A stretch of DNA of 38,341 nt from Solirubrobacterales bacterium (GTDB lineage Bacteria; Actinomycetota; Thermoleophilia; Solirubrobacterales; 70-9): the NCBI GenBank assembly GCA_021154855.1, contig JAJKHV010000106.1, forward strand, positions 1 through 38,341, given 5' to 3'. The notes beneath the pieces were generated by a model. The model did not search any database. It saw only the letters and a program-made list of their open reading frames with translations, and had not been told where the DNA came from. Positions 5,861-38,341 of the stretch are shown here, one piece after another. The translations under genes were made by a program, and so were the position numbers. How positions within the stretch are numbered: position 1 is the stretch's first letter; each line of letters opens with the position of its first letter.

Positions 5861-8800
5861 ATGAAGCTGAGCAGGGAAGCAAGTATTGAGAAAGGGAACA
5901 GGATGAGAAGGCTAGGTGTTTCCCGCCAGGGGTCAAAGGGCAGCCGGATAAAGAATCGGTGCACTGCATCGAGAATGGGCCGCGATACCCGACGCTCTGG
6001 CGCGATTGCCTTGGCTCTCCTTGCTCTTCTTGTCGGCAGCGCCAGCGCTGCCCCTCCGGTGATTGTCTCGACGAGCTTTTCGGGGGTCACGACATCCTCG
6101 GCTGTTCTTCGAGCCGAAATAGACCCGAAAGGCAAGGAAGCTCGATACCACTTCGAGTACGGCACCTCGCCCTGTATATCCAACTCGTGCACGAAGGTGC
6201 CGGTCCCCGAAGGCGCCATTGCGGCGGGCGCCGGAGCGGTCTCGGTGGCGCCGCTGCAGATCGAAGGCCTGGCGCCGAGCACCACCTACCACTTGCGGGT
6301 CGTGGCTAAAAACCCTGAAAAAGCCGAAGGGACCGAAGCCGTCTTTACAACCCATCGCTTGTCCCAGGCCTTTGGACCCTGCCTCGACGATGTGTTTCGA
6401 ACGGGAGGCCTAGCGCCACTTGGCGAACCCTCCGCCCTCTTGCCCGACTGTCGGGCCTACGAGCAGGCGAGCCCGGTGGAGAAGAACGGCGTCGATGCCC
6501 GCGGGCGGTTCACCTGGGCGCGCACGTCCCTTGAGGGCAACGGGATCGTCTACGGTGCCACCAGCGGGATCCCGGGCGCGGAAGGCTCCCAGGAACTGCC
6601 CTTCTACCTTGCCACCCGCGGCGGCGGGGCGTGGTCTACGCAAGGCCTCCTGCCACCGCCCAGCGCTGGCCAGAACGTCGCCATGCTGGGCTGGTCGCCC
6701 GACTTTTCGCAGAGCTTCAGTGCCGCCGATAATAAAGTAGGTCCACTAGAGGACATTGCCTTGCTAAGCCGATCCAGCACCGGCGGTTCGCTGAGGGAAG
6801 TCGTCCCCTACGGCAGCGGACTTGAAGCTCCGAGGCTGGCCAGTTCGAGCCCGGACGGATCAAGGGTTGTCTTCGAATCGAAGACCAAGCTTCTGCCCGC
6901 AGCCGTCGCGGGCGCCTCCAACGTCTATTTCTGGGATCGCTCCAGCGGGAAGCTCAGCCTAGCGAGTGTCCTGAACAGCGCCTCCACCGAAGGCGAATCG
7001 CCGCCCGAAGGCGCCTTCGCGGGCGCTTACGACTGGATCGGGGGCACCAGTTCCTCAAACCTTCATCGAGGCGGCGCGGCGGCCAGTTACTACACCCACG
7101 ACGAGCACACGCTCGCCAGCTCGGGCTCAGTGATCTTCACCGCCGCCGGCACGGGACAGCTCTATATGCGGGTCAACCCTGGCCGAGCACAGAGCGCGCT
7201 GGATGGGGCAGGCAAATGCACCGATGTGGCAAAAAAAGCCTGCACGCTGCACATCTCGGCGACGCAAAGGACGTTGGGTAAAGGAGAAGGCGGCACCGAT
7301 GCGGCCGGCACGCAACCGGCCGCCTTCATGGGCGCGGCCGCCGACGGTTCGAGCGTGCTCTTCACTTCTTCGGAGAAGCTGACCAACGACGCCACCACCG
7401 GTCCGGAACCATCCTCCGCGGCCCTGGGTCGCGCGAATATCGTCGACGGCAGCGGCAAGGACCTCGAATTGTGTTTGGCCAAGGCCAAGGGAGTGGCCGT
7501 AGACGGCTCCCACCTTTACTGGGCCAACTCCGGCGCAGGCACGATCGGACGAGCCGATCTCAACTGCAGCAGTGCCAGTCGGGAACCGCAGTTCATCACG
7601 GGTGCCGACAACCCACAGTACGTGGCTCTCGCAGGAGGATACATCTACTGGACCAACGCCGCGGATGGGGCCAAGGAAGCGGGCACGATCGGCCGCGCAA
7701 AACTCGGCGCCGGTGGCGCCGAAGAAGTCGAAGAGGACTACGTCGAAGGCGCCACTAATCCACAGGGGATCGCAGTGGATTCGGAACACCTCTATTGGGC
7801 TAATGCCGGTAACGAAGACGCGACGCGCACAATCGGCCAAGCGAAATTGGGCGCTGGCGGAGCCGAAGAAGTGAACCGGTCATTCATCGCGGTAGGAGAT
7901 GCATCGCAGAAATTCACTCCGCAGGGGATCGCGGTCAACGCGACCCACCTCTATATGACAATCGATGGCGCGCAGGAATTCAGCTACCTCTTTCGCTACG
8001 ACATCGGGGGCAATCCTGTGAGCAGGGAGATCTTCTTCGACTTCGACCACCGCGATCTGCCGGGCGACCGCGGCGTGGCCTTGGACGCCTCCCACGTCTA
8101 CTGGTCACGCCAGGGCGGCGACTCGGTCGGGCGGATCAATCTCAACCTGGAAAGCGCCAGCGCCGAACGCGCATTCATTGGGGGGGCGGGCCATCCGGGG
8201 GGCTTGGCGGCGGACGCCACGCACTTGTACTGGTCGGTGAATGGAGAAACTCCGGTCAACCCGGGCAACGACCTCTATCGCTATGAGCCGAGCACCACGA
8301 CCACCGGCCAGCTGAGTGACCTAAGTGTGGACGAGGCTGACTCCGGTGGGGCGGAAGTGCTGGGGCTACTCGGGGCGTCCGAAGATGCGAAAAAGGTCTA
8401 CTTCGTCGCCAACGGGGTCTTGGCAACGGGGGCGCAGCCTGGCGATTGCAAGGGAGCGGCGGAAGGGAGCCTCTCGTTCAGCGGGCAGTGCAGCCTCTAC
8501 ATGACAGAAGAGGGCGAGCCGACGCTCTTCATCGCTCGCCTCGACGCGAGCGGCAGCATGAGCGATGCACTCGATTGGCTGCCAAAGGGGGAACTCAGCG
8601 GACAGATCGAAAAAACCGCACGCGTCTCAGCCGATGGCAGCACGGTTCTCTTCCGCTCTCAGCGCAAGCTCAGCGCGTACGACAACGAAGGCGTCCCCGA
8701 GCTTTACCGCTACCACATCGGCGACGCGGGACCAAGTTGCATCTCTTGCAACCCGACCGTGGAAGCTCCCGTCGGGACGCCTGAATTCGGCAACATCAAC

Positions 8801-9460
8801 TTCTCCGCGATAATCCCCGCGGATCCCGCCTTCGTGCTCTCGCGCAATCTCTCCGCGGACGGCAGGCGCGCGTTCTTCCAAGCCGCCGACCCGCTGGTCG
8901 CCGCCGACACGAACGGCGCGGATGGCTGCCCCAACGAAAAATCCTCAATCGCCGTATTCCTCAGCTGCCAGGACGCCTATGAGTGGGAGGCTCAGGGCAC
9001 CGGCTCGTGCCCGGAAGACGCGCAGGACGGCGGCTGCCTGTACCTGCTTTCCACCGGCAAGAGTGAGCACGCCTCCTTTCTCCTCGATGCGTCGCCGAGC
9101 GGAGACGATGCTTTCGTCGCCACCTCCTCACCGAACCTGGTCCGCCAGGACCAAGACCAGCTGGTCGACGTCTACGACGTCCGCGTCCAGGGGGGGCTCT
9201 CGGCGCAGAATCAGCCGCCACCACCGCTCTGCGAAAGCGGCGAATCATGCCGTCCGACGACGAGCGCCGTGCCGGGCTTCCAGGCGCCCGCCACGGCGAC
9301 CTTCGCTGGTCCTGGCAACGCGAAAAGCGCCTGCCCGCCCGGTAAGCGGCAGTTGCACGAGAAAGGCAGGCGCCGCTGTGTCGCAAAACATCGCAAGCAC
9401 CGTCATGGCCATCGCAAGCACGAGCGAGCTGCGAAGCATGGAGGGGGAAGCAACCGATGA
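5861..9460 (+). CDS. Giant secreted protein with Fn3-like N-terminal domain and beta-propeller-like repeats
   Basis: 1199 aa; PVIVSTSFSGVTTSSAVLRAEIDPKGKEARYHFEYG (Fn3-like); repeats HLYWANSGAGTIGRADL / IYWTNAADGAKEAGTIGRAKL / HLYWANAGNEDATRTIGQAKL; SADGS-type repeats; basic C-terminus. Confidence 0.8.
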   Translation: MKLSREASIEKGNRMRRLGVSRQGSKGSRIKNRCTASRMGRDTRRSGAIALALLALLVGSASAAPPVIVSTSFSGVTTSSAVLRAEIDPKGKEARYHFEYGTSPCISNSCTKVPVPEGAIAAGAGAVSVAPLQIEGLAPSTTYHLRVVAKNPEKAEGTEAVFTTHRLSQAFGPCLDDVFRTGGLAPLGEPSALLPDCRAYEQASPVEKNGVDARGRFTWARTSLEGNGIVYGATSGIPGAEGSQELPFYLATRGGGAWSTQGLLPPPSAGQNVAMLGWSPDFSQSFSAADNKVGPLEDIALLSRSSTGGSLREVVPYGSGLEAPRLASSSPDGSRVVFESKTKLLPAAVAGASNVYFWDRSSGKLSLASVLNSASTEGESPPEGAFAGAYDWIGGTSSSNLHRGGAAASYYTHDEHTLASSGSVIFTAAGTGQLYMRVNPGRAQSALDGAGKCTDVAKKACTLHISATQRTLGKGEGGTDAAGTQPAAFMGAAADGSSVLFTSSEKLTNDATTGPEPSSAALGRANIVDGSGKDLELCLAKAKGVAVDGSHLYWANSGAGTIGRADLNCSSASREPQFITGADNPQYVALAGGYIYWTNAADGAKEAGTIGRAKLGAGGAEEVEEDYVEGATNPQGIAVDSEHLYWANAGNEDATRTIGQAKLGAGGAEEVNRSFIAVGDASQKFTPQGIAVNATHLYMTIDGAQEFSYLFRYDIGGNPVSREIFFDFDHRDLPGDRGVALDASHVYWSRQGGDSVGRINLNLESASAERAFIGGAGHPGGLAADATHLYWSVNGETPVNPGNDLYRYEPSTTTTGQLSDLSVDEADSGGAEVLGLLGASEDAKKVYFVANGVLATGAQPGDCKGAAEGSLSFSGQCSLYMTEEGEPTLFIARLDASGSMSDALDWLPKGELSGQIEKTARVSADGSTVLFRSQRKLSAYDNEGVPELYRYHIGDAGPSCISCNPTVEAPVGTPEFGNINFSAIIPADPAFVLSRNLSADGRRAFFQAADPLVAADTNGADGCPNEKSSIAVFLSCQDAYEWEAQGTGSCPEDAQDGGCLYLLSTGKSEHASFLLDASPSGDDAFVATSSPNLVRQDQDQLVDVYDVRVQGGLSAQNQPPPPLCESGESCRPTTSAVPGFQAPATATFAGPGNAKSACPPGKRQLHEKGRRRCVAKHRKHRHGHRKHERAAKHGGGSNR

Positions 9461-12400
9461 TCGTTCAGAAGAAGAGCCTCGTGCTCATCGCCGCGGTTTT
9501 CTTGGGAGCTTGGTGCTCGCTAAGCGGCCAGGCGATCGGCGCACCCGCCAAAGCAGCCTGGCTGCTTGACGCCACTTCCCTCCCGACGAACCTGGCCCCG
9601 GGCGCCGAAGGGGAAGTCTTCCTATACGCGGCCAACATCGGCGAAGCACCGACGAGCGGCGCTATCACCTTGAGCGACACGCTGCCGCCTGGCGTGACGC
9701 CGTTCAAATATGAAGCCCATAACAGTCAGCCAATGGATCCCCCCTCGGATCCATCCTGCTTGATTTCCCCGCCCACCATCATCTGCACAGAGCCGAATCC
9801 CCTCCCCCAGGGACGCCACCTGGAAGTGCGCGTCTTCGTAAAAGCGGGGGCGCTGCTGCCAGAAGGGGACCTGCCGAACGAAGCAAGCGTCAGCGGCGGC
9901 GGTGCGGAAGGAAAATCGACCGCGAACCAAATCCACATCAGCGCCACGCCGGCCGCCTTCGGCTTCCTGCCCGACTTCAGGGCGCTTCCCACCGAAGGGG
10001 ACGGCTCGAACGCCACCCTGGCTGCTTCGCATCCCTACGGGCTCACCGCCGACTTCGGCTTCCCCACGGAAAGGGTTCCGGGCGGCGCCCTGCCTCGCGG
10101 GGCGGGGCACGTGCGCGATATATCCGTCGACCTGCCGCGGGGGGAGATCGTCAACCCGGCGGCGACTCCGGTCCTCTGTACCGAGGCCGAACTGGTCACC
10201 GAGACTCCCGGCTGCCCGAAAGAATCGACGGTCGGCACGCTGACGGTGCGGAGCGTCGAAGCGACGGTGAAAGCCGCAACCTTTCCCATCTACAACATGG
10301 TGCCGCCGCCGGGCCAGCCGGCCGAGCTGGGAATGGACGCGTTCGGGGCTGGGATCTTTGTGCACGTGCAGGGCGGCGTGCGAAGCGACGGGGATTACGG
10401 GATCAGTGGCACGAGCAGGGACATCCTGGCGCTGACCGTTCACCCAGTCTTCGGCGTCAGCGCCGAATTGTGGGGCAATCCGTCCAATCCCGCCCACGAT
10501 AAGGTGCGCGGTCTCTGTTCCTTTCCACACGATCCGCCTGTATGCTCGGCGGAACCCACGAGCACCGCCCTGCTAACCCTGCCGAGCGATTGCCCGGGCC
10601 CGCCGCGAAGCGAAGTGCACGCCGACAGTTGGGAGGAACCGAGCCCTCCCAACCAGCTGAAGCAGATCAGCTACGGAGGGGTCGAAACCGAGGATTGCGG
10701 CTCACTGGAATTCGAGCCGACGATCGAGGCGAAGCCGACGACCAACTTGGCCGATTCCCCTTCGGGCCTCGACGTCGACTTGCACCAGCGCCAAGACTTC
10801 GAGTTCGAAGGTCGCTCCACGGCGCCGGTCAAAGACGTGACGTTGGCCTTGCCGGAAGGCCTCGTCGTCAATCCCTCCCAGGCAGATGGTCTGGGAGCCT
10901 GCACGGGCGGCCAGGCCGGCCTGAGGACCGGCGTGGGGCAGAGCCCGATTCACTTCAGCAAGGACCCCGCGCAGTGCCCGGACGCCGCGAAGATTGGCAG
11001 TGTCGAAGTCACCAGCCCGCTGCTTCCCGAATATGACGGAGCGGGCACGCATATCGCGGTCGATCCTGGAACGGGAAAAATCAAGCCGCGGCCATTGCAC
11101 GGCTTCCTCTACATCGCAAAGCCCTTTGAAAACCCCTTCGGCTCGCTCCTGGCGATTTACCTCACCATCGATGATCGCCAGAGCGGGGTGGTGGCGAAGC
11201 TCGCCGGCGAGGTGAAAGCCGATCCCGCCACCGGGCGGCTCACGACGACCTTCGAAGAAAACCCGCAGCTGCCGATCGAAGACGTGCGCGTGCACCTCTT
11301 CCCCGGCTCCCGGGCGGCGCTGCGCACGCCACCCGCCTGCGCTACGTACACGTCCGCTGCCCACCTCGTGCCCTGGAGCGCACCGGAAGGGGCGCCGGTG
11401 GATGAAAGCAGCTCCTTCCAGATCTCCGCCTCGCCCGGCGGCGGCCCCTGCCCGGCCGCGGCTTCGAATGCGCCCAACGTGTTCAGCTTCGAAGCCGGGA
11501 CGATCAGCCCCAAGGCCGGCGCGTTCAGTCCCTTCGTCCTTAAGGCGGCGCGAGCGGACGGTACGCAGGTTCCCTCCGGCTTCGAAGCGACCCTGCCCAA
11601 GGGCCTGATCGGCAGGTTGGCCGGCATCCCCTACTGCACCGAGGTCCAGATCGCCAAGGCCAGATCGCGCAGCCATCCCAACGAAGGCGCGCTTGAGCTC
11701 GCCGACCCAAGCTGCCCGTCGGCCTCCGAAGTCGGCACCGTCGATGTCGGCGCCGGCGCCGGCCCAACGCCCTTCCACACCCTTGGCCGCGTCTACATGG
11801 CCGGCCCCTACAAGGATGGGGCAGTGAGCTTCGTGATCATCACCCCCGCCGTCGCCGGTCCCTTCGACCTTGGCACGGTGGTAGTCAGGAGCGGGACCTA
11901 CGTCGATCCCGAAACGGCGCAGGTGCGGGCCGTCTCCGATCCCCTGCCGACGATTCTGGAAGGCATCCCGCTGGACGTGCGCTCGATCGCGCTGCGCTTG
12001 GGCCGGCCTGACTTCACGCTCAATCCGACCTCCTGCGAACCGATGTCGGTGCTCGCCACCGCCACCTCCGTCTTCAACCAGCCAGCGGCACTGAAGAGCC
12101 CCTTCCAGGTCGGGGGCTGCAAGTCCCTCTCCTACAAGCCGGCCCTCACCACCCGCCTCTTCGGCCCGGTGCGTCGCGGCGGCCATCCACGCCTTCGTAC
12201 CGTCTTTAAGGCAAAGCCGGGCGAAGCCAATACGGCTCGCATCGTCTTTGCCCTGCCGCACTCGGAGTTCATCGACCAGGCTCATTTCCGCACGATCTGC
12301 ACCCGTGTGCAATTCGCAGCCGATCAATGTCCGGCCGGTTCTGTCTACGGCCACATCAGGGCCATCACGCCTCTGCTCGATTACCCGCTCGAAGGGCCGC

Positions 12401-12750
12401 TCTACCTGCGCTCCTCAAACAACGAGCTCCCTGACGTGGTTGCCGCTCTGCGTGGCCCAGCCTCCCAACCAATCGAGATCGACCTCGACGGTCGTGTCGA
12501 TTCGATCAACGGTGGCGTTCGCACCACCTTCGCCGCCGTCCCCGACGCCCCGGTGACGAAGGCGATCGTCAGCCTGCAGGGCGGTAAGAAGGGCCTCTTC
12601 CAGAACTCGACCAACATCTGCAGGGGTACCCATCGTGCTTCCGTGCAGCTTCGCGGCCAAAACGGCAAGGCCCATCAGGTCAAGCCCCTGCTGAAGGCCC
12701 AGTGTGCAAAGAAAGCCTCCCGTCCGAAAGGCGGAGCAAAGGGCCGGTAG
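9457..12750 (+). CDS. Giant secreted multi-repeat protein with DUF11-like N-terminal domain
   Basis: 1097 aa; LPTNLAPGAEGEVFLYAANIGEAPTSGAITLSDTLPPGV; repeated CTE..CP..S.VG modules; ATGA overlap with upstream gene. Confidence 0.8.
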   Translation: MIVQKKSLVLIAAVFLGAWCSLSGQAIGAPAKAAWLLDATSLPTNLAPGAEGEVFLYAANIGEAPTSGAITLSDTLPPGVTPFKYEAHNSQPMDPPSDPSCLISPPTIICTEPNPLPQGRHLEVRVFVKAGALLPEGDLPNEASVSGGGAEGKSTANQIHISATPAAFGFLPDFRALPTEGDGSNATLAASHPYGLTADFGFPTERVPGGALPRGAGHVRDISVDLPRGEIVNPAATPVLCTEAELVTETPGCPKESTVGTLTVRSVEATVKAATFPIYNMVPPPGQPAELGMDAFGAGIFVHVQGGVRSDGDYGISGTSRDILALTVHPVFGVSAELWGNPSNPAHDKVRGLCSFPHDPPVCSAEPTSTALLTLPSDCPGPPRSEVHADSWEEPSPPNQLKQISYGGVETEDCGSLEFEPTIEAKPTTNLADSPSGLDVDLHQRQDFEFEGRSTAPVKDVTLALPEGLVVNPSQADGLGACTGGQAGLRTGVGQSPIHFSKDPAQCPDAAKIGSVEVTSPLLPEYDGAGTHIAVDPGTGKIKPRPLHGFLYIAKPFENPFGSLLAIYLTIDDRQSGVVAKLAGEVKADPATGRLTTTFEENPQLPIEDVRVHLFPGSRAALRTPPACATYTSAAHLVPWSAPEGAPVDESSSFQISASPGGGPCPAAASNAPNVFSFEAGTISPKAGAFSPFVLKAARADGTQVPSGFEATLPKGLIGRLAGIPYCTEVQIAKARSRSHPNEGALELADPSCPSASEVGTVDVGAGAGPTPFHTLGRVYMAGPYKDGAVSFVIITPAVAGPFDLGTVVVRSGTYVDPETAQVRAVSDPLPTILEGIPLDVRSIALRLGRPDFTLNPTSCEPMSVLATATSVFNQPAALKSPFQVGGCKSLSYKPALTTRLFGPVRRGGHPRLRTVFKAKPGEANTARIVFALPHSEFIDQAHFRTICTRVQFAADQCPAGSVYGHIRAITPLLDYPLEGPLYLRSSNNELPDVVAALRGPASQPIEIDLDGRVDSINGGVRTTFAAVPDAPVTKAIVSLQGGKKGLFQNSTNICRGTHRASVQLRGQNGKAHQVKPLLKAQCAKKASRPKGGAKGR

Positions 12751-30656: not shown

Positions 30657-33131
30657 ATGTCTAACGTTCACGTCTTGATCCGACGCGCAGGCATCGTCAT
30701 CGCGGCAGCGCTCGTCCTCCTCGCCCTCTCCGTGCCGGTCTCCCGGGGCGCGAGCCTGACCGACCACGTCCACGTCCTTTCCGGCACCAGGCCTGGGCCG
30801 GGCACCTTTGGCGGCGGCCACGACTTCCCCGGTGCGACCGTTCCGTTCGGCATGGTCCAGTGGAGCCCCGACACGACTCCGTCGGACCGCAACGGCCGCG
30901 GCGGCTACGACTACCGCGACTCCCACGTCAAGGGCTTCAGCCTCACGCACCTCGCGGGCGCCGGCTGCTCTCTATATGGGGACTTCCCCTTCCTGCCCAC
31001 GACCGAGCCGCTCGAGGGCTCGCCGGCCGCCGCCGGCTCCTCGCTGGATGGCAAGTTTGAGCCTGGCTTCTCCCACGCGCACGAGACCGGGCGGCCTGGC
31101 TACTACTCGGTGCGCCTCAACCCCGTGGGCGGCGCCGATATCGACGTGGAGTTGACCGCGACCACCCGGACCGGCATGGCGCGCTTCACATTCCCGCGCA
31201 ACCCGCATTCCAGCGTCCTGATCAACGCCGGCGGCAGCGCCCAGCCCGACGACTTCGCCGCCGTCCAGGTCGATCCGGCCCGCCGAGAGATCGACGGCAC
31301 CGCCTCCAGCGGCCTCTTTTGCGGCCAGCGCCCCCGCTACCGGGTGTACATCGCCGCGATCTTCAACCGCCCCTTCGGCGAGTACGGCAGCTGGGAAGAG
31401 GAAAAGGTGACCGCCGGCTCGAGCGCCGCCGGCGACAGCCAGTCCCCGCCCGCCAACCCGAAGACCAGCGCCGACGCGGGCGCCTACGCGACCTTTGACA
31501 CTCGCCACAACCGCGTGGTGACGGCCCGCGTCGGCCTCTCATTCGTCAGCGTCGAAGACGCTCGCGCAAACCTCGCCGCCGAAAACCCCGGTCTCAGGTT
31601 CAACGAGGTGAGGAGCCGTGCGCAGGGCACCTGGAACAAGATCCTGGGGCGGATCCGGGTCAAGGGGGGCTCTCACCGCCGCCTCGACACCTTCTACACA
31701 GCGCTTTACCACGCCTTCCTGGCGCCACGCACCTTCAGCGACGTCGGCGGCGCCTACATCGGCATGGATGGCTTGCTGCACCAAGCCGAAGACCGCATTC
31801 AGTACGCCGATTTCTCAGGCTGGGACACCTATCGGACGCAGATCCAGCTGCTCTCGATGCTGATGCCGCAGCGGGCAAGCGAGATGGTGCGCTCGCTGCT
31901 CGCCGATGCCGCCGAGAGCGGCTGTCTGCCGCGCTGGCCCTACGCCAACGGCCAGAGCATGACGATGGTCGGGGATTCGGCCGACCCGCTGATCGCCTCT
32001 GCGGCCGCCTTCGGCGCCACCGCGTTCAACCGCCAGGCTGCCCTCGCCGCGATGCTGAAGGGCGCCGATGAAACGTGTCGCAGCGCCAACGGCGAATATC
32101 TCGAGCGCCAGGGCCTCGCCTCCTACCTCACGCTCGGCTACGTCCCCTATGACCTCGACACCAACGTCCGCAACGCCAACTCGATCTACGGCAGCCCCGA
32201 CGACGTCTGGGGCTCCGCGGCGACGACGCTCGAGTACACGGCCGACGATTTCGCGATCGCCCAGTTCGCCGGCCGGTCGCTGAGCGACAGATCCACCTAC
32301 AGCCGCTTTATGAATCGTTCAGGCAACTGGCGCAAGCTGCTCAACCCGGGCAGCAGCCAGATCGAGCCCAGATACGAAAATGGCGCCTTTCCAGCTGATT
32401 ACGACAACCTCCACGGCGGTGGCTTCGTCGAGGGCGACTCGGTCCAGTACAGCTGGATGGTCCCGCACGACCCTGCCGGCCTCTTCCGCGCGATCGGCGG
32501 TCGGGTGAAGGCGACGGCCCGGCTCGATCAATTCCTGCGCAAGCTCAACGGCGGCCCCGGCGCCACCCACACCGACCATGCGCTGCTCGGCAACGAGCCG
32601 ACCCTGCCGGTTCCCTGGCTCTATGACTGGAGCGGCAGCCCCTACCGGACGCAGGCGGCGGTCCGCCGCGCCCTGCGCCTCTACAGCACTGCCCCTGCCG
32701 GCTATCCCGGCAACGACGACCTCGGCACGCTCTCCTCCTGGTACGTCTTCGGCGCCCTCGGCCTCTACCCAGAGGTGCCGGGAGTCGGCGTACTGGCAAT
32801 CGGCAGCCCGCTCTTCGGCCGTGCCTCGATCGCGATCGGCCACCACAGAAGGGTGACGATCTCGGCAACCGCCCGGGTGAGCGAGGGCCATGGCAAGCAC
32901 AAGCGACAGGTCGCTCTCAGGCCGGCTCAAGCCCCGTACGTCAAGGCGCTTCGGATCAACGGGCACAGCCACACCAAGCCCTGGACGACATACTGCGCCC
33001 TCGTCCGCGGGGGCGACCTCGCCTTCCAGCTGAGCCGCCACCCCAACCGCCGGTGGGGCAGCTCCGCCGCCGCGGCGCCGCCGTCCTACGGCCCTGGCCG
33101 GCCGATGCCAAGACAGACCTGCGCGCCTTGA
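30657..33131 (+). CDS. Glycoside hydrolase family 92 (alpha-mannosidase-like), secreted
   Basis: FGGGHDFPGATVPFGMVQWSPDT, GFSLTHLAGAGCSLYGDFPFLPT, FSGWDTYRTQIQLLSMLMP, YGSPDDVWGSAATTLEYTADDFAIAQFA, GNDDLGTLSSWYVFGALGLYPEVPG are GH92-type motifs; signal peptide. Confidence 0.9.
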   Translation: MSNVHVLIRRAGIVIAAALVLLALSVPVSRGASLTDHVHVLSGTRPGPGTFGGGHDFPGATVPFGMVQWSPDTTPSDRNGRGGYDYRDSHVKGFSLTHLAGAGCSLYGDFPFLPTTEPLEGSPAAAGSSLDGKFEPGFSHAHETGRPGYYSVRLNPVGGADIDVELTATTRTGMARFTFPRNPHSSVLINAGGSAQPDDFAAVQVDPARREIDGTASSGLFCGQRPRYRVYIAAIFNRPFGEYGSWEEEKVTAGSSAAGDSQSPPANPKTSADAGAYATFDTRHNRVVTARVGLSFVSVEDARANLAAENPGLRFNEVRSRAQGTWNKILGRIRVKGGSHRRLDTFYTALYHAFLAPRTFSDVGGAYIGMDGLLHQAEDRIQYADFSGWDTYRTQIQLLSMLMPQRASEMVRSLLADAAESGCLPRWPYANGQSMTMVGDSADPLIASAAAFGATAFNRQAALAAMLKGADETCRSANGEYLERQGLASYLTLGYVPYDLDTNVRNANSIYGSPDDVWGSAATTLEYTADDFAIAQFAGRSLSDRSTYSRFMNRSGNWRKLLNPGSSQIEPRYENGAFPADYDNLHGGGFVEGDSVQYSWMVPHDPAGLFRAIGGRVKATARLDQFLRKLNGGPGATHTDHALLGNEPTLPVPWLYDWSGSPYRTQAAVRRALRLYSTAPAGYPGNDDLGTLSSWYVFGALGLYPEVPGVGVLAIGSPLFGRASIAIGHHRRVTISATARVSEGHGKHKRQVALRPAQAPYVKALRINGHSHTKPWTTYCALVRGGDLAFQLSRHPNRRWGSSAAAAPPSYGPGRPMPRQTCAP

Positions 33132-36214: not shown

Positions 36215-36391
36215 TCTGGGGTCTCCCTTCGATCTCAGCCAGACCCCGAAGTTCCGCCAAGTCCCGCCGGGGCCAAGCGTTGCAGACATCAGTGTAGACG
36301 TCGATGAAGACCATAAGCCCCCGTTGTCCAATGGTCAAATGTTTTTTGAAGAGGCGCAAGTAGGCTCGCGGCGAATGGGAAGATGGAGAAG

Positions 36392-38341
36392 ATGAGCACC
36401 TCACGACCGAGCTACGACGCGGGCCAGATCGAGACTTCCCGGCAGGGGGCCTGGGCTGAGCGACGCGCTTTCGCGACCCCGACACCGGCCGAGGGCCAGC
36501 GCGCCATCTACATCAAGCCGTCAAGTCCGTTCACCTCGGGCAAACTCCATATGGGCCATGTCCGCGATTACGCGATTGGCGACGCCTACGCTCGTTTCCG
36601 CCGCGCCCGCGGCGACGCGGTCCTCTTCGGCTTCGGCTTCGACGCCTTCGGCTTGCCGGCTGAGATGGCGGCGATCGAGCGAAAAGTGCCGCCCGCCGAG
36701 TGGGTAGAGGCCTGCGGTGAGCGGATGCTGGAGCAGATGGTCCGGCTCGGCTTCTCCTTCGACTACGAGCGCGTCTTCTACAGCTCCGACGAGGCCCAGT
36801 ACCGCTGGTCCCAGTGGCTCTTCGTCACCCTGCTCGAGGCGGGCCTGATCTACCGCGACGACACAACGGTCGATTGGTGCGATCACTGTCGTACGACGCT
36901 TGCCGCCCTGCAGGTCGAGGACGGGCGCTGCTGGCGCTGCCACAACGAGGTCCGCCTGATCCGCCGGCCGACCTGGTTCCTGCGCATAACGCCCTACCTG
37001 GAGGAGAACGACCGCCGCCTCGCCGAGCTGGCCGATTGGGACGAGATCTCGCTCTCCACCCAGCGCTACATCCTCGGCCGCAGCGACGGGGTGGAGGTGG
37101 ACCTGGGTCTCCCGGGTGCGGGCCTCACGGCCTTTACGCCCCACGTGGATTCGGTCAGCGCGGCCAGCTTTGTGCTGCTCTCCCCGCGCCATCCGCAGCT
37201 GGAGGAGTGGGCAAGCGACCCCGCCGTCAGCGCACAGCTCGATGAGCTGCGCTCGGGCGGCTGGGAGCGCAGCGCTCGCGACGCCAAGTCAGTGCCTCTC
37301 GTCGACACCGGCGCCTCGATAAGCGCCCCGTGGAGCGACGGCGAGCTGCCGCTGCTGGTCTCGCCGCTGGTCGATGCCCGCTATGGGCCGACGGCGGCCC
37401 TCGGGATCCCAGAGGTCGATGAGGCCGACGCGACGATCGCCGCACGGATCGAGCGGGTGGGGGAGACGGCGCCGGCCGCAGGCCCCGATGCCCCGCAAAT
37501 CCGGCAGGCGGTCCGCTACCGCGCCGCCGACTTCTCGATCTCACGTCAGCGTTTCTGGGGCACGCCGATCCCGATCGTCCACTGCGAGAGCTGCGGCCCG
37601 GTGCCGGTGCCCGAGGAGCAGCTGCCCGTGGCGCTGCCCCGCGACGTCGAGCCGACCGGCGAAGGGAATCCGCTGGCCGAGCGGGCGGATTTCGTCGAGG
37701 TCGCCTGTCCACGTTGCGGTGAGCCGGCCAGGCGTGAGACCGACACCCTCGATTGTCATTTCGATGCCCTCTGGCTCTGGGTGCCGTCGGCGGTCCCACC
37801 CGAGGCGCGGGCCGACTCGATGTTCAGTCACCCGGACCTGCAGCACTGGCTGCCGTCCGAGCGCCTCGTCGCCGGCTCTGACAGCGGTGGCTTCGTCTTC
37901 GATCAGCGCGTCGTCACCAAGGCGCTGCGCGATATCGGCCCCTTCGCCTTCCTCGAGCGCGGCGAGCCGTTCAGCGGCTGCCTTTTCCACGAGATGGTGA
38001 TTGCTGACGGTCGCAAGATGAGCAAGCATCTCGGCAACGTGGTCGACCCCGACGAGCTGGTCGAGCGCTACGGCGCCGACACCGTTCGCCTCGCGATCCT
38101 CTACGCGGCCGGCCCCGCCAAGACCCTGAACTGGAATGACGGCGCCCTGCGCTTCGCCGGCCGCTTCCTGCGCAACGTCTGGGCCTACTCTCAGCAGCGC
38201 TTTGCAGCGGTCGCCGACGCGCCCGAGGACGACGAGGCCGCCGCCGACACCGAGTTCCTGCGCGAGCGTTTGCGCAAATGGTGCGACAACGGCCTCGAGC
38301 GGATCACCGCCAGCCTGGAGGACCTGCAGATGCACACAGCC
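36392..38341 (+). CDS. Leucyl-tRNA synthetase-like class I aminoacyl-tRNA synthetase, 3' truncated by window edge
   Basis: SPFTSGKLHMGHVRDYAIGDAYARFRRARGDAVLFGFGFDAFGLPAEMAAI; CDHC...CWRC zinc motif; SRQRFWGTPIPIVHCESCG; RKMSKHLGNVVDPDELVERYGADTVRLAILYAAGP. Runs off the window, so absent from the ORF track. Confidence 0.87.
   Translation, partial: MSTSRPSYDAGQIETSRQGAWAERRAFATPTPAEGQRAIYIKPSSPFTSGKLHMGHVRDYAIGDAYARFRRARGDAVLFGFGFDAFGLPAEMAAIERKVPPAEWVEACGERMLEQMVRLGFSFDYERVFYSSDEAQYRWSQWLFVTLLEAGLIYRDDTTVDWCDHCRTTLAALQVEDGRCWRCHNEVRLIRRPTWFLRITPYLEENDRRLAELADWDEISLSTQRYILGRSDGVEVDLGLPGAGLTAFTPHVDSVSAASFVLLSPRHPQLEEWASDPAVSAQLDELRSGGWERSARDAKSVPLVDTGASISAPWSDGELPLLVSPLVDARYGPTAALGIPEVDEADATIAARIERVGETAPAAGPDAPQIRQAVRYRAADFSISRQRFWGTPIPIVHCESCGPVPVPEEQLPVALPRDVEPTGEGNPLAERADFVEVACPRCGEPARRETDTLDCHFDALWLWVPSAVPPEARADSMFSHPDLQHWLPSERLVAGSDSGGFVFDQRVVTKALRDIGPFAFLERGEPFSGCLFHEMVIADGRKMSKHLGNVVDPDELVERYGADTVRLAILYAAGPAKTLNWNDGALRFAGRFLRNVWAYSQQRFAAVADAPEDDEAAADTEFLRERLRKWCDNGLERITASLEDLQMHTA

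Follow-up and report, generated by a model that had tools for sequence, protein, structure and literature searches.

What use does a genome that already encodes a leucyl-tRNA synthetase (LeuRS) have for a second LeuRS-like gene whose hallmark motifs have been rewritten? The question is raised by the end of contig JAJKHV010000106.1 from a Solirubrobacterales bacterium (assembly GCA_021154855.1), the whole 38,341-nucleotide stretch of which we refer to as the window. Here an open frame on the forward strand runs from an ATG at 36383 (a further ATG lies at 36392) to position 38341, the end of both window and contig; judged from relatives of 733-789 amino acids, this copy is short by about 90 C-terminal residues. 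Altogether, our comparisons make it probable that the gene encodes a LeuRS-derived paralogous aminoacyl-tRNA synthetase (aaRS) whose specificity has shifted to a dedicated tRNA and, most likely, away from leucine to another amino acid; enzyme and tRNA would form a natural, lineage-specific aaRS:tRNA pair. The Solirubrobacterales that carry it, which are soil actinobacteria, appear to maintain a further, undescribed system for charging amino acids beside normal protein synthesis.

The LeuRS-like protein and its family

The same genome holds a canonical leuS (G000:C113:3012-5486; an 863-amino-acid frame scoring 1004 bits, above the TIGR00396 cut-off), and the window gene is therefore a paralog. 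An earlier note on this DNA, which had described a LeuRS scaffold with altered hallmarks, allowed that relatives might use such a protein as their sole LeuRS; the relatives examined also have a canonical leuS, and the claim of paralogy stands. All of the motifs it named are found in frame, although its coordinates were slightly off for two ranges, and the range it gave for the segment replacing GGxEHA, 37861-37935, is out of frame (37871-37933 is in frame).

The best-matching families of the window protein are LeuRS and the LeuRS editing domain. Against NCBIfam TIGR00396 the truncated query scores 448.6 bits, under the cut-off of 548.4, and the editing domain scores 43 bits compared with about 200 in the canonical copy. 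Both class I signatures are present, the first intact as HMGH (HxGH; 36548..36559) and the second as KMSKH (for KMSKS; 38015..38029) with its Lys residues retained. FGLPAE (36647-36664), SRQRFWGTPIP (37541-37573) and VERYGADTVRL (38060-38092) likewise lie in frame. The CP1 editing motifs TTRPDT and GTGxxMxVPxHDxRD are not matched: the T-rich motif is degenerate and reads TPHVDS (37136..37153), and the second reads GPTAALGIPEVDEAD (37385..37429) where canonical LeuRS has GTGAIMAVPGHDERD, with both Asp residues retained. Further along, DTLDCHFDALWLWVPSA replaces DTMDTFVDSSWYFIRY (37742..37792) and AGSDSGGFVFDQRVVTKALRD, which begins AGSDSGGFVFDQR, replaces GGVEHAILHLMYARF (37871..37933). An alignment of the paralogs, the large-tRNA type described below and canonical LeuRS places KPSSPFTS (approximately 36512..36535) at the amino-acid pocket strand, where the canonical enzyme has LEMLPYPS. 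All of these features are on the forward strand.

Relatives are encoded at 35 loci (L009-L043), nearly all in metagenome-assembled genomes of Solirubrobacterales, with identities up to 78%. The altered motifs are common to 30 full-length relatives at 56-78% identity and are therefore neither sequencing noise nor signs of a decaying gene: all 30 have the same kind of replacement at the editing T-rich motif, at SSWY and at GGxEHA, and show little or no variation in HxGH, the Asp of GFDxFGLP, the CxxC pairs and KMSKH. Relatives of 733-789 amino acids stop after the anticodon-binding domain and lack the C-terminal domain with which LeuRS binds the tRNA elbow (the window copy is cut before that point). 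More divergent copies, at roughly 41-52% identity, are found in G210, G138, G390, G346, G239, G001, G310 and G363. The tree against bacterial LeuRS that the earlier note had proposed places all paralogs in one clade (100/100) separate from canonical LeuRS, with the window's group at 95/99. A search of 397 genomes of the phylum gave no copy beyond the order at the threshold used. A plasmid or phage origin was rejected, as searches gave ordinary leuS only, and internal stops reported in some copies are merely those genes' own end stops.

For a relative, L009, AlphaFold predicts a LeuRS fold (pLDDT 83.6, pTM 0.85) with a TM score of 0.82 to Neisseria gonorrhoeae LeuRS (7a0p). The window's group has YIKPS(S/A)PFTSG, and most of the divergent copies have Y(I/V)F(A/P)xCPFTSG, in place of the canonical pocket segment YVLEMLPYPSG, and EHA is changed to DSG or DGG/DAG in the paralogs. 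Since these pocket segments differ, the subgroups may use different substrates.

Partner tRNAs and linked genes

If the paralog is a working synthetase, which tRNA would it charge? ARAGORN flagged a tRNA fragment adjoining one divergent copy, and large tRNAs were recognised by reading the upstream sequences and with a search program that allows insertions in the D-loop. Of the divergent copies, eight were examined (L080-L087), and each adjoins a complete cloverleaf of 204-218 nucleotides. It combines an acceptor stem GCG(T/C)CCG..CGG(G/A)CG(C/T), a D-stem GCTC/GAGC, G18-G19, a short variable loop, a T-arm and A73 with a D-loop that holds a structured insert of about 140 nucleotides. Of 46 pairs, 93.8% are formed and 19 are doubly changed; covariation is 0.428, compared with 0.209 in shuffled and about 0.1 in slid controls. 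Because of the insert, Rfam RF00005 matches only the 3' part of the 216-nucleotide form (32.1 bits). The anticodons of the eight are UAG (five), UUG (two) and UUC (one). At another locus, L135:4568-6243 (G363:C165), a 205-nucleotide tRNA is followed by a degenerate LeuRS-like gene without HIGH and KMSKS (L135:4819-6243); G363 has a catalytic copy on another contig (L088).

No dedicated tRNA lies within about 8 kb of the synthetase gene in the window's clade, where it is encoded elsewhere in the genome. A covariance model of the large tRNA (R1), run over 40 genomes, recovered from genomes of the window's group a 96-nucleotide tRNA with the same acceptor and the anticodon UUC; the window's own genome has it at G000:C33:2823-2918. 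Its D-loop forms a covarying hairpin of 6-7 base pairs, and its covariation is 0.343 compared with 0.145 in the control. The form in G308 scores 65.6 bits with RF00005 and has all of the cloverleaf arms (acceptor, D, anticodon and T). When the copy of the window's genome is folded alone, the hairpin and the acceptor, anticodon and T arms form and the D-stem is not in the minimum-energy structure; this stem rests on complete conservation, not on covariation.

The distribution of this tRNA follows that of the synthetase. In a class sample of about 398 genomes, 29 carry a window-type paralog (27 scoring over 1100 bits and two split or partial). The 96-nucleotide tRNA occurs in 28 of these 29 and in none of the 369 others, the single miss, G373, being 78% complete. 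A ThrC-like pyridoxal phosphate (PLP) enzyme, closest among NCBIfam models to PRK08197 and thrC, is similarly present in 26 of the 29 and absent from all 369; the three of the 29 that lack it have the synthetase gene cut by a contig end. The ThrC-like gene lies downstream of the synthetase at 28 of 31 loci, and does so in several gene surroundings that are unrelated to one another; G002 has both genes on separate contigs. With a second leuS, a clade of its own, changed motifs and a dedicated tRNA, a paralog with altered amino-acid or tRNA use is the best supported of the options that the earlier note had listed.

The divergent copies have other neighbours. The copy at L085 adjoins genes for SbnA (406.6 bits) and SbnB (357.8 bits), both over cut-off, which make 2,3-diaminopropionate; the pair (L085:5403-7476) lies divergent from the LeuRS-like gene with its 206-nucleotide tRNA. 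As a general partner SbnA was rejected, its sole match among 40 genomes being in G239. Two divergent copies (L086:1575-6947 and L087:10271-15677) adjoin a conserved block of HypF, HypE, a diaminobutyrate-type aminotransferase and an isochorismatase-like hydrolase, in which HypC and HypD were not noticed, no search having been aimed at either. A zinc alcohol dehydrogenase (ADH), a DapA-like aldolase and a HAD phosphatase adjoin five divergent copies.

Around the 96-nucleotide tRNA, integrase-like (tyrosine recombinase) genes lie nearby in several genomes (L132:4621-5715, L138, L144), and repeated 3' ends of the tRNA occur elsewhere, for example at L125. This arrangement suggests that the tRNA serves as an integration site. 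A second odd tRNA, of 91 nucleotides, was seen at L201:57-147 (G308:C18:27136-27226). It has a GGCC/GGCC hairpin in its D-loop, an anticodon loop CTTTCGA and C as discriminator, and was missed by ARAGORN.

GAA codons in the window's clade

The anticodon UUC raises the question of what happens at GAA. G308, which is scored as 100% complete, has the standard tRNA set minus the ordinary tRNA-Glu(UUC). A pattern search for UUC anticodons in 20 window-type genomes found the ordinary tRNA-Glu(UUC) in none of them, the D-hairpin tRNA (together with the 91-nucleotide tRNA of G308) being the only match. In the window's clade, GAA should therefore be read by the D-hairpin tRNA, the sole UUC class left. 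The ordinary tRNA is clear in G008, G025, G031, G210, G138, G390, G239 and G363, and others seemingly have a diverged form.

Codon usage in these genomes is also unusual. In window-type genomes GAA makes up 28-57% of the Glu codons of exported genes compared with 10-17% in cytosolic ones (odds 3.4-7.2; p down to 1e-45). The corresponding odds are 0.3-1.1 in genomes without the system and 1.9 in G210; signal peptides were assigned by a simple hydrophobicity rule on home-made gene calls and codons are not independent, which makes the p-values optimistic. Between homologues, GAA and GAG interchange at 0.52 of expectation in the window's type and at 0.93 in genomes without the system, with a weaker contrast in core genes around leuS (0.66 and 0.88). 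AAA/AAG interchange likewise falls in the window's type, to 0.57, and AAA lysine codons are unusually frequent there as well. In an alignment of GH92 homologues, the columns with GAA and those with GAG are for the most part different, and conserved Glu is nearly always GAG.

The GH92 columns and the GAA-rich exported genes prompted the idea of a full reassignment of GAA, which was rejected as a complete explanation because GAA stands at invariant Glu columns as in ordinary genomes and because AAA behaves similarly. A Shine-Dalgarno-like context was also discarded as the cause, since next-base context hardly altered the result. A published genetic-code screen is, by its own account, unable to predict that a codon has been reassigned to a non-canonical amino acid, and a term search of that paper gave no mention of the Solirubrobacterales group (PMC8629427). 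In the window itself, three forward-strand genes have an extreme GAA share of their Glu codons (241-1104, 20 of 23; 7871-9460, 17 of 28; 9457-12750, 38 of 54); at least two of them have apparent signal peptides, and other A-ending codons in them stand at 7-11%. The secreted GH92-like gene at 30657-33131 (+) mostly uses GAG (8 GAA, 18 GAG).

Proposed mechanism, known systems and alternatives

How might such a pair work? We envision that the PLP enzyme would, as its most likely role, make the amino acid or remodel it on the tRNA, and that the synthetase would adenylate the amino acid and charge the odd tRNA, recognizing its modified elbow and not the long variable arm of a tRNA-Leu. The enzyme has lost its elbow-binding C-terminal domain, and the tRNA has gained structure in the D-loop, that is, at the elbow. 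LeuRS-type enzymes recognize their tRNA outside the anticodon; since they do not read it, the anticodon could drift, as the occurrence of UAG, UUG and UUC suggests, and may have settled on UUC in the window's clade, replacing the ordinary tRNA-Glu(UUC). GAA codons would receive Glu itself, a residue resembling it, or, if charging is dual, a mixture. Cognacy, the amino acid carried and ribosomal use are, in all of this, what we infer from sequence comparison. We hold as a tentative and rather unlikely extension that an additional amino acid (or, through dual charging, a mixture of it and Glu) enters proteins at GAA by way of the pair, mainly to the benefit of exported proteins, with GAA partly distinct from GAG and with sister subtypes serving other amino acids through the anticodons UAG and UUG; among subtypes, one adjoins the 2,3-diaminopropionate pathway.

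To our knowledge, few natural aaRS:tRNA pairs are known beyond the standard set. PylRS:tRNA-Pyl and SepRS:tRNA-Cys are natural pairs with a patchy distribution, a linked amino-acid biosynthesis gene and a dedicated or recruited tRNA. The system described here resembles them in having an extra synthetase with its own tRNA, a patchy spread and a linked gene, and differs in its class I LeuRS origin, its sense-codon anticodons and its tRNA architecture. With bacterial LeuRS (TIGR00396; structures from N. gonorrhoeae, Escherichia coli and Thermus thermophilus) the paralog shares the overall fold, the CP1 domain, HxGH/KMSK, zinc-type CxxC pairs and a tRNA with A73. Unlike that enzyme, it has replaced pocket and editing motifs, no C-terminal tRNA-elbow domain and a score below the family cut-off, and its tRNA has a D-loop hairpin or insert in place of the long variable arm. 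If our reading is correct, it would add one more natural aaRS:tRNA pair, of class I LeuRS origin and with linked amino-acid enzymes, and a new tRNA architecture in which the D-loop carries a hairpin or a structured domain of roughly 140 nucleotides. The system makes it possible to test whether a tRNA with such a D-loop functions on the ribosome, which amino acid it carries and whether a sense codon can have a second meaning, and the synthetase and tRNA would be candidates for orthogonal pairs in genetic-code engineering.

Unusual bacterial cloverleafs are also found among allo-tRNAs and other non-canonical tRNAs (PMC7609411). In tRNA-Sec an enlarged D-arm is a known recognition element for the PLP enzyme SelA (PMC7609411), which parallels the combination seen here; unlike in tRNA-Sec, the enlargement lies inside the D-loop (a hairpin or an insert of about 140 nucleotides) and the tRNA has a short variable loop, and the linked PLP enzyme belongs to fold type II (ThrC-like). 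A term search of that review, as far as its text was accessible, gave no match for a D-loop hairpin or a 140-nucleotide D-loop insert (PMC7609411). Haloarchaea similarly have two divergent LeuRS forms per genome; according to the abstract, which does not mention a D-loop-insert tRNA, these do not co-evolve with tRNA-Leu (PMC3436685).

Several observations weigh against a dedicated pair with its own amino acid. The putative cognacy of the synthetase and the 96-nucleotide tRNA is drawn from co-occurrence and from homology with the adjacent large-tRNA copies. GAA aligns mainly with Glu in standard homologues; of the invariant columns at which GAA stands, 17 of 20 in cytosolic and 4 of 5 in membrane proteins are Glu columns, and the frequency of GAA on invariant Glu columns equals that of ordinary genomes (15% and 15%), exported proteins having too few invariant columns for this comparison. 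Because GAA still marks such columns, the ordinary GluRS may also charge the 96-nucleotide tRNA; the GAA results would fit together if the product were Glu-like or dual-charged. The metabolic partners moreover vary by subtype (ThrC-like; SbnA/SbnB; HypE/HypF and aminotransferase; DapA-like/ADH/HAD), and therefore no single amino acid is implied.

Alternatively, the aminoacyl-tRNA would serve a non-ribosomal pathway, the tRNA acting as a carrier in amide-forming or cell-envelope chemistry and not as a decoder. In its favour, the divergent copies adjoin small-molecule enzymes. Subtype anticodons vary among UAG, UUG and UUC, and ordinary UAG, UUG and UUC tRNAs coexist in G210, so that decoding is not conserved. 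However, the 96-nucleotide tRNA is the only UUC reader found in the window's clade and should join translation, and no aminoacyl-tRNA-using enzyme was seen adjoining the tRNA. We consider this alternative serious but doubtful.

A simpler account, which we judge unlikely, is that the 96-nucleotide tRNA is the lineage's tRNA-Glu(UUC), charged by GluRS, with the LeuRS-like protein as a linked factor (a tRNA chaperone, editing or regulatory protein). It would explain why GAA mostly aligns with Glu, including the 17 of 20 cytosolic invariant columns, and no other UUC-type tRNA is left in the window's clade. The synthetase active-site signatures are nevertheless conserved, unlike in a dead factor; the acceptor stem and A73 of the 96-nucleotide tRNA recur in the synthetase-adjacent large tRNAs with other anticodons, and the ordinary tRNA-Glu(UUC) of G210 has a different acceptor, GCCCCCA.

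LeuRS ancestry would also suit a drug-resistant or otherwise leucine-specific second LeuRS, an option raised by the earlier note, but the leucine-pocket segments themselves are replaced, the C-terminal tRNA-binding domain is absent and the partner is a specific non-Leu tRNA, which together make it very improbable. Finally, a decaying or chimeric paralog or an assembly artefact is scarcely credible and, for the family, refuted: a contig end does truncate the window copy and one degenerate copy adjoins a large tRNA, but 30 intact homologues on long branches keep invariant catalytic residues, and the paralog is present in the 6.36-Mb single-contig genome G210.
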